The notes below the pieces were generated by a model. It searched no databases. It was not told the DNA's origin and saw only the letters and a program-made list of their open reading frames with translations. A program made the translations under genes and the position numbers. Below are positions 2,677 through 25,637 of a DNA stretch of 64,000 nucleotides, one piece after another; position 1 is the stretch's first letter; each line of letters starts with the position of its first letter. The stretch comes from Polyangia bacterium (GTDB lineage Bacteria > Myxococcota_A > Polyangia > Polyangiales > Sandaracinaceae), in assembly GCA_030426845.1 (NCBI GenBank), contig JAUHXR010000002.1, forward strand, positions 1 to 64,000. Reading direction: 5' to 3'.

Positions 2677-3587
2677 CAGGCGCTCCGGTCCATGGGGTGC
2701 GCGTAGATCTTGAGGTCGAGGATGTCGAGCGTCTGGGTCTGCCCCGTGTTGGCCGCCCAGACGCCGATGACGACCTTGTCCATCGGCTCGCCGGTGGTGC
2801 TCGTGAGGGGCACGTAGCCGGTGAGCCCGGTGGCGCCCGCGCCGTGCTTGTGCCCGTCCTGGGCCCACACGTCGAGGTGTGCGCGGTAGCCGAGCACGGT
2901 CTCGCCCGGTGCGCCGTCCGGGTCCTGCATCGCGTCGCTCATCCAGAGCTCGAGCCGCACGCGGATCCCGCACGCCATCGCGTTCAGATCCATCGTGCCC
3001 GGGTTGTCGAGGCCCAGCGTGTCGACGTCCTGGATCGCGTCGGCGAACACGCTGTAGAGGCGCGCGGTGTTGCTCCCAAGCGTGAGATTGGCGAGCAGCC
3101 CCTCAGCGTCGCCCCCCTCGTCGTCGCTGAGGACGCCGACCACCGGGTGGAGCGTGGTCGCGGACGCGGCGCCGAAGACCGCCTCGATCACCACGCCGCG
3201 GGGGAACGCCGCGACGAGGTACTCGGCCTCGAGGACCGGCATCACCCACACGCCGCTCAGGCCCGTCGTCGAGAGGCGGATCACCGCCTGGTCCCAGTCG
3301 TCGGTCACGACCGACGCCGCCGCGCTCCCGGCCTCGTTGCCGATGTCGTCCTCGAAGTGGATCGGGCTGTCGGACGCGAACTGACTCAGGTCGGTCCCGT
3401 TCCACTGCCACACCGGACCACCGCCAGCCTCGTTGACGGCGGTCGCGTTGGCGATGATGGCGTCCTTGATCCGCTCGAAGGTTTCGGCAGGGATCTCGTA
3501 GCGCAGGTCGGCGGGGAGCGGCCGCGGGCGGTCCTGCAGCACGCGTCCGATGCTCGCGTCGGTCTTCTCCGGGATGGTGACGGGCAT
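2676..3587 (-). CDS. Tail/baseplate accessory protein, unknown
   Basis: A 303-residue protein inserted between the gpJ-like and gpI-like genes. The first 40 residues look like a short docking segment; residues about 60-300 read as a beta-rich jelly-roll or carbohydrate-binding-like domain (many WxxD and xVxLxL strands). No family is recognised with confidence. Because it sits inside the baseplate cluster and is coupled to its neighbour by a TGATG overlap, a virion or receptor-binding role is likely. Confidence 0.55.
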   Translation of the reverse strand: MPVTIPEKTDASIGRVLQDRPRPLPADLRYEIPAETFERIKDAIIANATAVNEAGGGPVWQWNGTDLSQFASDSPIHFEDDIGNEAGSAAASVVTDDWDQAVIRLSTTGLSGVWVMPVLEAEYLVAAFPRGVVIEAVFGAASATTLHPVVGVLSDDEGGDAEGLLANLTLGSNTARLYSVFADAIQDVDTLGLDNPGTMDLNAMACGIRVRLELWMSDAMQDPDGAPGETVLGYRAHLDVWAQDGHKHGAGATGLTGYVPLTSTTGEPMDKVVIGVWAANTGQTQTLDILDLKIYAHPMDRSA

Positions 3588-4782: not shown

Positions 4783-5163
4783 TCAGACCTCCACCGTGCC
4801 GACCCCGTCGGCGGTTCGGAGCCGCACGCGGCCGGTGAGCCGACGCGAGGCCGGGTCGAGGGTCAGGTCGATCGCCTCGATCTGGCGCACGCCGGGCACG
4901 CGCCGGATCTCGCGCGCGAGCACGGTCCGCACGGTCGCGAGCGAGACGCCCTTGCGGAGGATCGATCCGAGGTACGGAACGCCCTGGGCGACGTCGAGGA
5001 ACCACTCGGCACGCCACCACCGCAGGCGCACGTTGACCTCCTGCACCACGGCGTCGAGCCCGGTGACGACCGCGAGGTCGACGCCGTCGACGTGGAGGTC
5101 GCCGGCGACCGGGTTGGTCACGTCGTCGACCTCGCTCGGGAGCGTGAGCCTCAGATCGGCCAC
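4783..5163 (-). CDS. Baseplate wedge protein, gp25/gpW-like
   Basis: A 126-residue protein directly before the gpJ gene (1-base gap). Size, order and pattern fit the gp25/gpW lysozyme-like baseplate family: an N-terminal VDLAVVTGLDAVVQEV segment, RWWRAEWFLDVAQGVPY in the middle, then LAREIRRVPGVRQI and a beta hairpin at the C-terminus. In Mu this is the gp46 position. These proteins nucleate the first ring of sheath subunits; the lysozyme-like catalytic residues are normally lost. Confidence 0.8.
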   Translation of the reverse strand: MADLRLTLPSEVDDVTNPVAGDLHVDGVDLAVVTGLDAVVQEVNVRLRWWRAEWFLDVAQGVPYLGSILRKGVSLATVRTVLAREIRRVPGVRQIEAIDLTLDPASRRLTGRVRLRTADGVGTVEV

Positions 5164-21172: not shown

Positions 21173-21429
21173 CGGCCGCCCCCGACGCACATGAAGACCG
21201 CCTCGAGCTTCCCCGTCTCCCGGTTGCGCGCCTCGCACACGACCTCGCGCGGCCTCCCGTCGGGCACGCGCGTCCACGGGGTCTGACGCCGCAGGTCGTC
21301 CGCCCGGAGGCGACGGTCGAGGGCCTGCTCCTCGGCAGCGGTCGGGCCCGTCCACGGCGCGCGCCGACGCCGCTGGTGCCGCTCGTCGTTCGCGAGGGCT
21401 CGGGCCAGGTCGATGGCGGTCGCGGTCAT
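21169..21429 (-). CDS. Small phage protein, unknown
   Basis: An 86-residue, basic protein: an Arg-rich segment NDERHQRRRRAPWTG, then a C-terminal part with CEARNRETGKLEAVFMCVGG that could be a small beta hairpin with a Cys pair. It starts with an ATG overlapping the stop of the helicase-loader gene (ATGA). Function unknown. Confidence 0.55.
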   Translation of the reverse strand: MTATAIDLARALANDERHQRRRRAPWTGPTAAEEQALDRRLRADDLRRQTPWTRVPDGRPREVVCEARNRETGKLEAVFMCVGGGR

Positions 21430-22097
21430 CGGACCGGCCTTGAGCGCAGGCTCTGCTCGACTGGCAGGGACCGCAGGATGGCGATGCCGTGCTCGTCGCT
21501 CCCGCGGCCGAGACGGTCGAGCGTGCGGTCGTCGTACCTCGCGACGAGCCGCGCGGGGTCGAGGTTCGAGAGCAGCATCGTGCGGCGCGGCAGGCGCTGC
21601 CTCGCATCGATGATGTCCTGCAGCATGTCGGCCGCGTCGCCCTGGCCTCGCTCGCTCCCGAGCTCGTCAATGACGAGGAGCTCGCACGAGCGCGCGGCCC
21701 GGTACGCGTCGCGCTCGCGCACCGTGGTGCCGAGCATCAGCTCCTCGAGGTCGCGGGCGCGGTAGTAGCGCCCTGGGAGCCGCGCGAGCGCCCACCCGGC
21801 CGCGACGGTCTTCCCGCCGCCGGGGCGGCTCAGGAGCACCAGCGCGGGCCGCGACGACAGCAACCAGCCGCGGGTGAGCTGGAGCGCCCGCGTGTCGAGC
21901 ATCTCGTTCGCGACGATGGCCTTCTCGCCGTCGGAGTCGAGGCGCTCCGATACCCCCGACGCATCGAGCAGCCGCTTGCGCTGTCGGGTGACCTCCTCGG
22001 TCTCCCAGGCCTGGAACTCCTCCTCGCTCACCGCGAAGGTCCTCGCGCGGTCGATGACCGCCGAGAGCGCGTCGTCCAGCTTCGCCAGGTCACCCAT
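21426..22097 (-). CDS. DnaC/IstB-like replication helicase loader
   Basis: A 223-residue AAA+ ATPase. Walker A RPGGGKT lies at residues 91-97, Walker B CELLVIDELG with D144 and E145, sensor-like LLSNLDPARLVARYDDRTLDRL after it. The N-terminal 60 residues are helical and would bind the host replicative helicase. It follows the initiator gene, giving the lambda O/P-like order of initiator and loader. Confidence 0.85.
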   Translation of the reverse strand: MGDLAKLDDALSAVIDRARTFAVSEEEFQAWETEEVTRQRKRLLDASGVSERLDSDGEKAIVANEMLDTRALQLTRGWLLSSRPALVLLSRPGGGKTVAAGWALARLPGRYYRARDLEELMLGTTVRERDAYRAARSCELLVIDELGSERGQGDAADMLQDIIDARQRLPRRTMLLSNLDPARLVARYDDRTLDRLGRGSDEHGIAILRSLPVEQSLRSRPVR

Positions 22098-23091
22098 GCC
22101 GCACCTCCTCCGTCGGGATGTCCGCGTCTCCGAAGCTCAGGGGCGCCGTCGTCGGGTCGCCCTTGAGGATCACGCTCTCGCTCTCGCCGCCTCGGCCGCG
22201 TTGGCGGCCGCGCTTCGTCCACGGCTTGCCGCCCGAGACCTTCGACGCGACGAACTTCCGCCACGAGTTCGCCGAGCGGATGTCGACCACGGCGAGCCAC
22301 TCCCGAGCCCAGCCGTCGAGCACGACGTTCACGTCGAGGCCTCGCTTGGAGGCCCACGCGTCGGCCTCGTGACCGACCTCGACGTGGAGCGGGCGGTCGG
22401 TCTCGCGACCGCGGTACTCGCCACCGTCGCTCTCGATCGCTCGCTTCATCGCCCCCGACGACGCCACGACGAGGTCGCTCGTCCGCTGCATGTCGATCAC
22501 GTCCTGAGGCGGACGGGGGGTAGGGGGGGGATCCTGATCCTGATCCTGATCCTGATCCTCCCCGCAGAGCCGGATCCCCTTCGGAGGGGCTTCGCGCCTA
22601 GTTTGATGCCCCTCCGAAGGGGCATCGTGTTTCGACGGATGCCCCTTCGAAGGGGCATCGGGTCCCGGCGTGCCCATGGCCGCTTCGTCAGGGAACCAGT
22701 CCGCGTACTTGGCCCAGAAGCGCCCCACGAACGGGTGGTCCTCGTAGGTTTCGACCAGCTTGCGGATCGACCCGCGACGCTTGTCGCCCGCCTTGAGCGA
22801 GCGCCCCACCTCGACCCGGAGCATGTTCGGGACCCACGCGAGCTCGTCCTCCTCGTCGACGAACGCGAACCCGGCCTCCTCGATGCGCGCCAGCGCCCGC
22901 CGGACCTCGTCCTCGGACTGACCAGTGTGCGCGGAGATGGTCGGGACGTTGACGTGGTAGAGGCCCGTCATCGTCGCGTTCGGCGCGGTCGCGAGGTAGA
23001 GCGCCACGACCTGCGCCACGGGGTCTCCGCGGAGGCGCTTGCCGCTTCCGCGGATCCACAGCATCGGGCTCACCTTCCGGTAGTCCTGCAC
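22090..23091 (-). CDS. Phage replication initiator with embedded iterons
   Basis: About 333 residues from a GTG at 23091 (TAGTG overlap; GAGGAGGAG just upstream). Residues about 1-100 look like a winged-helix initiator domain: QDYRKVSPMLWIRGSGKRLRG-type opening, VVALYLATAPNATMTGLYHVN, SEDEVRRALARIEEAGFAF. Residues about 140-200 are a low-complexity linker with 11-residue repeats (DAPSKGH, DAPSEGH, EAPPKGI) and a DQDQDQDQDP run, encoded by the palindromic iterons. The C-terminal region is helical/DnaD-like. It precedes the loader gene. Confidence 0.78.
   Translation of the reverse strand: MQDYRKVSPMLWIRGSGKRLRGDPVAQVVALYLATAPNATMTGLYHVNVPTISAHTGQSEDEVRRALARIEEAGFAFVDEEDELAWVPNMLRVEVGRSLKAGDKRRGSIRKLVETYEDHPFVGRFWAKYADWFPDEAAMGTPGPDAPSKGHPSKHDAPSEGHQTRREAPPKGIRLCGEDQDQDQDQDPPPTPRPPQDVIDMQRTSDLVVASSGAMKRAIESDGGEYRGRETDRPLHVEVGHEADAWASKRGLDVNVVLDGWAREWLAVVDIRSANSWRKFVASKVSGGKPWTKRGRQRGRGGESESVILKGDPTTAPLSFGDADIPTEEVRHG
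22530..22559. repeat. Five tandem GATCCT hexamers in the initiator gene
   Basis: Five copies of GATCCT run from 22530 to 22559, encoding the DQDQDQDQ run on the minus strand. They lie next to the palindromic iterons and a G-rich run (22515-22530), so they may be part of the same origin. Confidence 0.8.
22576..22659. repeat. Three palindromic iterons, 33-bp phase; candidate phage origin
   Basis: Palindromes are centred near 22582.5 (CCCCTTCGGAGGGG, imperfect), 22615.5 (9-bp arms GATGCCCCT/AGGGGCATC) and 22648.5 (perfect 22-bp palindrome at 22638-22659, core CCCCTTCGAAGGGG). The centres are exactly 33 bp apart, about three helical turns and eleven codons. Iterons inside the initiator gene are the lambda-O type of origin. 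Confidence 0.65.
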
Positions 23092-24353
23092 TACTCCTCC
23101 TCGTCTCCCAGCGGGGCCCACAATCGCGACCGATGTCGACCGGAAGTCCAGCCGACCCTCTTCCATCCGAGATGCGCGAGCGCCTGACCGACGTACCCGG
23201 CAACAGCGCTAGGCGTGGCGCCCCATAGCGCCTGCACTCGCACCAGGTCCTCGCTTCGAGCGATCGCCGACACTACAGCTGAGTCGGACGCGGCAACGGA
23301 CGCCCGAACGGCGTCGAAGACGTCTTCCTTCAGCGTCCGGCCCTCGGCCTTCATCCGAGATGTTCGCGCGCGCAGTTCACTCCATCGCCTTTGGCGGTCG
23401 GCGGCTTCGTCGGCTGCTCGCTGCGCTCGATCGGCCGCCTCCGCCTCTTCGCGAACTAGTCGGCCTACGATGTCGGCGGCCGTTCTCATCAGCCGCGGCT
23501 GGTCGCTGGCCCCTATCGCCACTTGGGTGGCGAGACTGATCGCAAGATCGGCAGATCCCAGGCGTTCGGCGCAGAGCGCCGCATTGAAGAGGCTCTCCCA
23601 CTTGGCTGCCGAGTCGGCGGTCCTCTGAAACAAATGAAGTGCTCGGTCGAACCACCCGACTTCGAAACAAGCAAGACCTTCCATGAAGGCTGCTTGCACA
23701 TCAAATGCAAGGTTTCGCGATGCCAGTAGGTGGGAGGCCGCCTCTTCGTATGCGCCTCTGTTGTAGGCATCGATACCCTTCTCGTGGAGTTGCTGGCGAC
23801 GCCTGTGTCTTTCCTCGATTGTCAGTGACTCTGCCTCGCGTTGCTCCCGCAGTCGTCGAAGCACGCCGAAGAAGTATCTAGCTTTCCCCGAGTAGGTCAG
23901 GTCCCTCTTCCGAGCAACGGCTTCCATCCCCTGGGCCAAGTGCTCCGGCGACTCTTCAATAACGAGTCGCGGTAGAGCTCCCTCTACGGTCCGCGGTGTG
24001 CGCCCGCCAACGATGTGCGACCACATCTCCATCGCCCTCCCGACCATGGCATCGACCATTCGGGCCCTATCCGCCTGTGCGTTTGCCAGGGCCGCCGCGT
24101 CCTCGGCCCTAGACACCGCCTCGTCCAACGGGACCATGCTGGGATGAGACTCGTGAAGATGTACGTTTGATTTGCCGAGGTTGCACCGGTCACACGACGT
24201 GACCAGGTTGGCCGGGTCGTCTGAGCCGCCCCTGGATGACGGAATGATGTGGTCGACGTGGAGCTGAGCGTCGTTAGCGGTGGCGCCGCAATAGACGCAC
24301 CGAAACCCGTCGCGCTTCAGCACCTCAAACCGAACTCGCTGGCTTACGGCCAT
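23091..24353 (-). CDS. HNH nuclease with TPR-like region and C-terminal helical domain
   Basis: A 420-residue protein; the ATG at 24353 has AGGAG-type GGAGG just upstream and is preferred to an ATG 48 bases earlier. The HNH domain is at the N-terminus: C19-x2-C22, DHIIPSSRGG from D34-H35, N49 and C54-x2-C57. Residues about 180-320 contain TPR-like helices (AYNRGAYEEAASHLLASRNLAF, CFEVGWFDRALHLFQRTAD). The last 60 residues (ALWGATPSAVAGYVGQALAH, LGWKRVGW) resemble a small winged-helix. The region 23.5-24.3 kb is poorer in G/C than its neighbours, suggesting separate origin. Function unknown; it interrupts the replication module. Confidence 0.7.
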   Translation of the reverse strand: MAVSQRVRFEVLKRDGFRCVYCGATANDAQLHVDHIIPSSRGGSDDPANLVTSCDRCNLGKSNVHLHESHPSMVPLDEAVSRAEDAAALANAQADRARMVDAMVGRAMEMWSHIVGGRTPRTVEGALPRLVIEESPEHLAQGMEAVARKRDLTYSGKARYFFGVLRRLREQREAESLTIEERHRRRQQLHEKGIDAYNRGAYEEAASHLLASRNLAFDVQAAFMEGLACFEVGWFDRALHLFQRTADSAAKWESLFNAALCAERLGSADLAISLATQVAIGASDQPRLMRTAADIVGRLVREEAEAADRAQRAADEAADRQRRWSELRARTSRMKAEGRTLKEDVFDAVRASVAASDSAVVSAIARSEDLVRVQALWGATPSAVAGYVGQALAHLGWKRVGWTSGRHRSRLWAPLGDEEE

Positions 24354-24381
24354 GACACCTCCATGGCGGCAAGAGTAGGTG

Positions 24382-25317
24382 TCACGGCGCCCACCCGTCA
24401 CCCCGACGCAGCGGTCCGAGGACCGCGCCGTACGCCTCGAAACGGGCGGCGAAGACGCTCGGCTCTTCGCCCGCGTAGAAGAACGCCTGGCCCTGCCTCG
24501 TGCCCCTCACGGGCTTGCCCGTGGCGTCGAGGAACGGGATCCGGCCATCGGTTAGGCAGACCGGGAACCGACGCAGCAGCTCCTGACACCAGTCGGTGTC
24601 CGTCGTGTTGTTCACGAGCACGATGCCCGCGACGAGCGCGCCGGACTCGTACGCCTCCACGAACCGCGTGGTGAAGCGCTCGACCAGCGGCGAGGAGTAG
24701 GGCGGGTTGAGCCACACCCGGCCGGCCCACGCCTTCGACAGGCCGTCGTCGGCCGCCGTGTAGAACGTCTTCGCGCGGACGAACCGCTGCGCCCCCACGT
24801 TGCTCGCCGGGTCGAGGTCGATCTCCCCGAGCACCTCGCGAGCCGCCTCGAGGTACTTCGGCGGCGTGCCCCAGGAGTCACCGTCGTAGTCGGGCGCGTC
24901 GCTCGTCGCGCGGATGGTGCCCGCGGTCGTGAGGCGCTCGCCCTTCTCCCGGATCACGGCGACGTGGTGATCGAAGTCGTCCTCGGGAACGCTCGCGAGC
25001 TTCTGCCACCGCGAGGACTGATCCTTCGAGATGCCCAGGTCCTCGAGCGAAACGCTCGCATCGTCCGACCGTTTCCGCCGGCCCGGCCTGAGAACCGCGC
25101 TGCACAGCTCCCCGAGGCGGCGCTCCGCCCGGAGCGCGATCTCGGCCGCGTCCTGCTGAGCGTCGAGCGCTGCCCCGCGGGACCGGTGGTAGACCTCGAT
25201 CGCGCGGGCGCGGTCACGGATCGACCGGACGTCGTCGAGGTTCTTGCAGCGCGCCAGCCACGCCGCCGCGCGCTCGACGTCGAGCCGGTCACCGTCCTCT
25301 CGGAGAGCGAGGGTCAC
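24382..25317 (-). CDS. Phage adenine-N6 DNA methyltransferase (Dam-type)
   Basis: A 311-residue protein; the GTG at 25317 overlaps the previous stop (GTGA). Residues about 20-150 are helical and resemble the recognition or partner domain of phage Dam proteins. From about residue 150: YDGDSWGTPPKYLEAAREVLGEI (substrate 'W.TP' motif), DPASN and VWLNPPYSSPLVERFTTRF, where NPPY is the catalytic motif IV of amino-methyltransferases. The SAM-binding portion follows (GIVLVNNTTDTDWC). It probably methylates phage DNA against host restriction. Confidence 0.82.
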   Translation of the reverse strand: MTLALREDGDRLDVERAAAWLARCKNLDDVRSIRDRARAIEVYHRSRGAALDAQQDAAEIALRAERRLGELCSAVLRPGRRKRSDDASVSLEDLGISKDQSSRWQKLASVPEDDFDHHVAVIREKGERLTTAGTIRATSDAPDYDGDSWGTPPKYLEAAREVLGEIDLDPASNVGAQRFVRAKTFYTAADDGLSKAWAGRVWLNPPYSSPLVERFTTRFVEAYESGALVAGIVLVNNTTDTDWCQELLRRFPVCLTDGRIPFLDATGKPVRGTRQGQAFFYAGEEPSVFAARFEAYGAVLGPLRRGDGWAP

Positions 25318-25637
25318 GCCGCAGACCTCCCGAGCCGGCGCGAGAGCCCGTCGAGGATCCGGTCGACGTCCGCGAGCTCGTGGACGTAGCCGGAGTGCCA
25401 GCCGCGCACGAGGCGGTGCGCCTTGCCCTCGCTCCACTTCACGCGGTCCTCCTCGCCCACCCGGATGAAGAGCCGCACGTGCGCGGGCGCGGCCGCGGCG
25501 GGCCGTGCGAGGACGAGCACATCGCGCTCGGGCTCGTCCTCGAGTCGGATCGCGGCGCGCTCCTCGACGTCGAGCACGTCGGGCGCGGGCATCGCCCATC
25601 GCGACCTCATGCCGGCGATCGCCTCCTCGGGGGTCAC
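25314..25637 (-). CDS. Small phage protein, unknown
   Basis: A 107-residue protein from a GTG (GTGA overlap) reading VTPEEAIAGMRSRWAMP. It has a beta-rich middle (RDVLVLARPAAAAPAHVRLFIR), an EEDRVKWSEGKAHRLV stretch and a helical tail. No family recognised. Positioned directly before the methylase gene. Confidence 0.58.
   Translation of the reverse strand: MTPEEAIAGMRSRWAMPAPDVLDVEERAAIRLEDEPERDVLVLARPAAAAPAHVRLFIRVGEEDRVKWSEGKAHRLVRGWHSGYVHELADVDRILDGLSRRLGRSAA

Follow-up and report, generated by a model that had tools for sequence, protein, structure and literature searches.

We analysed a stretch of 64,000 nucleotides (hereafter the window) that belongs to a 9.4-Mb myxobacterium-like genome and carries an integrated prophage (Table 1). 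Its replication block encodes a replication initiator whose low-complexity linker is specified by three related palindromes and an array of hexamers, and this linker sits just upstream of the gene for a DnaC-like helicase loader. Judged from the sequence around it, the initiator most likely starts at the GTG at 23091, within an open reading frame that itself extends to 23166; this start is favoured because it overlaps the upstream stop codon (TAGTG), is preceded by GGAGGAG and agrees with homologues, which begin MRDY.

Table 1. Coordinates of the prophage features in the window.
Feature	Position	Strand	Centre	Remarks
Contractile-tail (sheath, baseplate, tape measure), portal, terminase and head genes	~1-20 kb	minus		
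Prophage replication block	21-25 kb			
DnaC-like helicase loader gene	21426-22097	minus		PHROG 50, E 3.3e-22; overlaps the end of the initiator gene
Replication initiator gene	22090-23091	minus		333 aa; winged-helix N-terminal domain, low-complexity linker with candidate origin, C-terminal domain
G-rich run	22507-22530			GGCGGACGGGGGGTAGGGGGGGGATCC; encodes a proline stretch
Candidate origin	22530-22659			within the initiator gene
Five GATCCT hexamers	22530-22559			coding strand AGGATC, read QDQDQD; candidate unwinding element
Palindrome 1	22576-22589		22582.5	CCCCTTCGGAGGGG; 14 bp, one mismatched pair; encodes part of EAPPKGI
Palindrome 2	22605-22626		22615.5	22 bp, one mismatched pair; encodes DAPSEGH
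Palindrome 3	22638-22659		22648.5	GATGCCCCTTCGAAGGGGCATC; perfect 22 bp, two inverted iteron half-sites; encodes DAPSKGH
Winged-helix-coding part of initiator	22680-23091	minus		lacks the recognition-helix iterons that most relatives carry
HNH endonuclease domain fused to long C-terminal region	23091-24401			weak TPR match in the C-terminal region
Dam-like adenine methyltransferase domain	24382-25599			within the replication block
Repressor	near 28.6 kb			
Integrase	34.2-35.4 kb			

Several features surround the palindromes and hexamers. The HNH endonuclease gene lies directly upstream of the initiator gene and overlaps it. By analogy with origin sequestration, the GATC within each of the five GATCCT hexamers could be a target of the Dam-like methyltransferase. 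The G-rich run, which directly adjoins the hexamers, could form an unusual DNA structure. GC skew across the window had no usable minimum at the palindromes and hexamers, and skew within the prophage was uninformative.

The initiator protein matches the PHROG 1701 profile, named 'DnaD-like helicase loader' (E 2.1e-23, residues 27-216), and two unnamed PHROGs match it with lower E values; by profile, the PHROG 1701 phage proteins include the window protein as well as its relatives. That annotation says loader, but the genomic evidence favours an initiator that binds the origin and works with a separate DnaC-like loader. The N-terminal domain is predicted to form a helix-turn-helix with a wing (pLDDT 90.1), and fold comparison returned weak matches to winged-helix DNA-binding proteins and better ones to phage proteins, some of them named replisome organizers. 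The best match in the PDB was weak (E 0.016), as was that to 4pql (E 0.046), which we take to be a RepA_N-type structure. A profile search of solved structures gave no match, and a Pfam scan returned a sub-threshold HTH_36 alone, with neither Phage_rep_O nor RepA_N (PF06970).

Palindromes on an 11-bp grid beside an easily melted hexamer array

The first-pass annotation had described three related palindromes with centres 33 bp apart, the last a perfect 22-bp palindrome, next to five GATCCT copies, and re-measurement bore this description out. An exact CCCCTYCGRAGGGG occurs at just the three palindrome sites in the whole genome, and their 14-bp core is found nowhere else without mismatch. That the exact phasing goes beyond what coding would impose, as had also been proposed, holds for one part of the pattern and not for the other: the 33-bp spacing is trivial, because it follows from an 11-residue peptide repeat (11 codons), but the palindromes themselves need particular codons. 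When the peptide was kept fixed and codons were redrawn from this phage's usage, 20,000 recodings produced three such 14-bp palindromes 12 times and a perfect 22-bp palindrome 6 times.

The informative DNA period in the window is instead 11 bp. Its half-sites fall on an 11-bp grid in three successive rounds of half-site, inverted half-site and spacer, and the spacers have diverged completely while the half-sites were kept. An easily melted tract adjoins these repeats; of the 40-mers in the window, 99.8% are more stable than a 40-bp stretch at the hexamers. In position and unit these hexamers are homologous to the (CAGGAA)n arrays of relatives.

An 11-bp iteron is conserved in the linker of homologous initiators

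Phage records, viral contigs and genomes were all searched for homologues of the N-terminal domain; most of those collected are ~33-43% identical. The window protein as a lone query against viral contigs returned no relatives, and an alignment query was needed to find them. After removal of near-copies, the comparison set comprised 55 non-redundant homologues with a hexamer array, from Acinetobacter, enterobacterial, burkholderial and myxococcal phages; a near relative (L012, 49% identical) was left out since its contig ends just before the linker.

We found that nearly all 55 homologues carry in the linker an 11-bp iteron with the consensus GCCCCTTCGAA, in forward or reverse orientation or both, and that forward iterons stand at fixed distances of 13, 24 and 35 bp before a hexamer array (CAGGAA/CAAGAT). 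Linker iteron matches numbered 122 in the 55 homologues (vs. a mean of 27.4 and a maximum of 39 in 300 synonymous recodings), at a density of 10.8 per kb in the linker vs. 0.25 per kb elsewhere in the loci. Iterons were spaced by 11 bp in 52 cases, by 22 bp in 15 and by 33 bp in 4, with all three codon phases occupied, and the autocorrelation of linker DNA was raised at a lag of 11 (0.55 vs. 0.34 expected under the synonymous null, z 22) and at a lag of 22 (z 16). These counts treat related sequences as equal, and the recoding control covers codons, not ancestry; changes of frame and orientation on the family tree are therefore the safer argument. Iteron orientation changes about 12 times on that tree. 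The adjoining hexamers, CAGGAA-type arrays of 3-10 units, are frame-shifted in three homologues (L029, L043 and L081, which read GTGTGT, not QEQEQE), which amounts to three changes on the tree. The window (L011) and another member of its phylum (L099) sit on very long branches; L028 and L108 did likewise in the first tree and are absent from the second. Such branches make parts of the tree uncertain, and the placements of all four were not relied on.

Across the family, conservation rests with the 11-bp iteron, whose core is TTCGAA, and with the hexamers next to it. These are repeated sites within the gene of the initiator, kept at the DNA level beyond coding, as in an intragenic iteron origin. 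The first-pass annotation had predicted that the palindromes would be frozen at the DNA level in homologues. The prediction held for the unit GCCCCTTCGAA, which is kept in both orientations and in three frames, but not for the layout, as the three palindromes of inverted pairs at 33 bp are the window's own variant and its nearest usable relative shares the unit and not the arrangement.

Relatives within the window's own phylum vary further. A member of the same order (L013) carries consensus iterons on an 11-bp phase followed by AGAAGC hexamers, whereas another (L015, 1935-2132) has different iterons (GATAGGGTATCG and GGTATCGATAC), 11-12 bp apart, followed by ACAGGAAC-type hexamers, and L099 has AACCSTTTCGG-type iterons 11 bp apart; in both L015 and L099, ACAGGAACAGG-type hexamers come after the iterons. 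Among these relatives the sequence of the iterons varies but their period and the hexamers are retained, as would be expected if sites evolve with the binding domain; iterons and binding domain may thus have co-evolved.

Arrays of CAGGAA also occur on Salmonella plasmids (NZ_CP018658.1, CP039577.1 and many others), in up to 26 places per plasmid; these arrays are unrelated and, among the matches listed, stand without iterons.

Protein-blind scans recover the same initiator family and a few cassettes outside it

We searched 2.9 million viral contigs for exact matches to a 23-mer, with no protein input; 49 contigs matched, and in 45 of these the 23-mer lay inside an initiator gene of the window's family, across all three frames. 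Among 50,697 phage records, the 15 that contained at least 80% of a 52-bp cassette were the same 15 found by protein similarity. An exact search of the viral contigs for the window's own 22-bp palindrome gave no match.

Cassettes were also found outside the initiator gene. Two contigs that are identical over the 6 kb compared (L114, near 3131-3153, and L126, near 5126-5148) carry four iterons and six CAGATC-type hexamers among phage structural genes, at a place with no evident gene, and the DNA examined is without a family initiator; this cassette is possibly an origin that borrows the initiator of another element. In L143 (match at 3063-3085) an iteron-hexamer cassette stands at the end of a 58-codon frame, and the gene upstream of it looks like a different, unrelated initiator. 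In L123 (match at 3242-3264) two cassette copies lie outside evident genes, beyond another putative initiator. That L123 gene, which is of another family, itself contains four intragenic GGTGCAGAAAGTGC repeats near its 3' end, ~300-550 bases before the match, a sequence pattern which suggests that intragenic origins may be more general.

Alternative readings of the repeats

We considered whether the repeats might serve as operators alone, with the initiator repressing its own transcription or translation and replication starting elsewhere. Most relatives do carry a second iteron cluster ~180 bases downstream of the start codon, in the EGAxKGL codons at the start of the predicted recognition helix (97 sites vs. 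23 expected, maximum 34), where codon choice is strongly skewed (GGG 94% vs. 25% elsewhere; CTT 91% vs. 18%), and a clade of Acinetobacter-type phages carries a third over the ribosome-binding site (17 sites vs. 0.43 expected). Both clusters would fit autoregulation equally well, and the third suggests autoregulation in addition to an origin, so that dual use is likely. As the sole function, however, repression is improbable: the invariant cluster lies in mid-gene beside the hexamers, the upstream cluster is absent from most members and the window lacks the second and third clusters alike, and it is not evident why a repressor site would need an array of 3-10 hexamers next to it.

Two further readings are each very improbable. 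The DNA repeats could be a side effect of selection for a repeated peptide, a flexible charged linker (APSKGH...QDQD), together with recent tandem duplication, and in the window the spacing of exactly 11 codons and the identical codons used for shared residues are what this would produce. Against it, 11 is not a multiple of 3, and successive iterons are therefore read in different frames, as in AGC CCC TTC GAA GCC CCT TCG AAG CCC CTT CGA AGC (SPFEAPSKPLRS), which no peptide constraint can explain. According to frame and orientation, the GCCCCTTCGAA unit yields SPFE, APSK, PLRS or GASKG; as the pattern is kept where it is translated differently, it is the DNA itself that has been preserved. The first-pass annotation had named homologues that keep the peptide repeat and lose the DNA palindromes as the finding that would count against an origin, and the opposite was seen, with the DNA unit kept and the peptides differing. 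The sites are moreover lost in synonymous recodings, the sequences between the palindromes of the window have diverged completely, and the cassette also occurs outside genes, so that a peptide-driven origin of the repeats is largely refuted.

The palindromes might instead act in the messenger, as RNA hairpins of an attenuator or terminator, and the window RNA does fold far better than its shuffles (z -6.4). Across 55 relatives, however, the median z is -0.5, and members with direct repeats form no hairpin though they keep the DNA unit; since the hairpin is strong in the window but not conserved, the reading at the level of DNA is preferred. Chance palindromes were rejected, as no dinucleotide shuffle of the window gave a 22-bp palindrome with three or fewer mismatches, or an array of five GATCCT, and the palindromes are rare in recodings. 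The hexamers recall DnaA-trios, but with respect to the binding sites they run with the opposite strand polarity, and for that reason the assignment was dropped.

Discussion

We conclude that the linker segment is very probably the theta-type replication origin of a myophage-like prophage, placed within the gene for its own initiator and combining initiator binding, opening of the hexamers and loading of the helicase. The repeats, their conservation as DNA, their co-occurrence with the initiator family, the predicted fold and the order of the genes support this reading. From these sequence features we infer that the initiator would bind, unwind and begin replication at the linker, in the following way. 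The winged-helix N-terminal domain would bind the iteron half-sites (GCCCCTTC/GAAGGGGC), and the 11-bp grid would bring several bound initiators to the same face of the helix. The nucleoprotein complex so formed would strain and open the adjoining, less stable hexamer array, where the DnaC-like loader, the product of the neighbouring gene downstream, would place the replicative helicase of the host. The protein linker that the origin encodes would then be a tolerated by-product.

The survey of phage replication modules by Weigel and Seitz of 2006 is reportedly the standard one. We found no description of the origins of these temperate phages in the open literature searched, and the iteron strings, searched as text in PubMed Central, matched no phage paper, although an earlier mention elsewhere is possible.

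Among known systems, oriλ has its iterons and an AT-rich tract in the middle of the O gene (PMC7466680). The first-pass annotation had likened the placement of the window's repeats to that of lambdoid O origins, with sequences that differ, and the comparison was upheld, as the logic is the same and the family separate. Lambda and Stx phages likewise have initiator-bound iterons in mid-gene, a strand-opening tract beside them and a loader gene after, and their iterons contain a G-tract (PMC7466680). However, lambda origins use 4 iterons and Stx origins 6, together with an AT-rich tract (PMC7466680), whereas the window's family uses an 11-bp unit phased at one helical turn, and hexamers instead; it gives no Pfam match to the O family, and its loader is DnaC-like (PHROG 50), not of the P type.

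In pSK41 Rep, a winged-helix domain binds boxes inside rep, and the origin-encoded linker is dispensable (PMC5703833). The pSK41-type Rep proteins (RepA_N) of staphylococcal plasmids thus resemble the window's initiator in their central Rep boxes and in the order of binding domain, linker and C-terminal domain (PMC5703833), but the window's family gives no RepA_N Pfam match, has different boxes and is a phage gene paired with a DnaC-like loader. The initiator-helicase loader (ILH/HIL) modules of phages, for example that of Burkholderia phage JC1, share the order of initiator and then, directly after it, DnaC-like loader (PMC9144972); the part of that account available to us describes the gene order and contains no iterons. 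By analogy, the window's system is one with the logic of oriλ/O and of pSK41 Rep, in a separate family.

More tentatively, and with rather more doubt than confidence, we propose that temperate phages from several bacterial phyla have one origin grammar in common, in which 11-bp phased iterons in either orientation precede (CAGGAA)n-type hexamers. This grammar would occupy three frames of the initiator gene, would in most members also be copied into the codons of the recognition helix that presumably reads it, and would move as a cassette. The cassettes outside the initiator gene suggest theft of origins, or their exchange between phages; if the proposal is true, cassettes that lie outside genes or beside other initiators would let elements borrow the initiator of a relative.

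The linker repeats are a candidate origin of replication in a large set of temperate phages, including prophages of Acinetobacter, Escherichia, Klebsiella, Burkholderiales and Myxococcota. Because the same unit is kept in three frames and two orientations, they also clearly illustrate a natural case in which DNA sites take precedence over protein coding. Finally, the hexamers are kept while the iterons diverge, which offers a handle on the role of such hexamers in strand opening or helicase loading.
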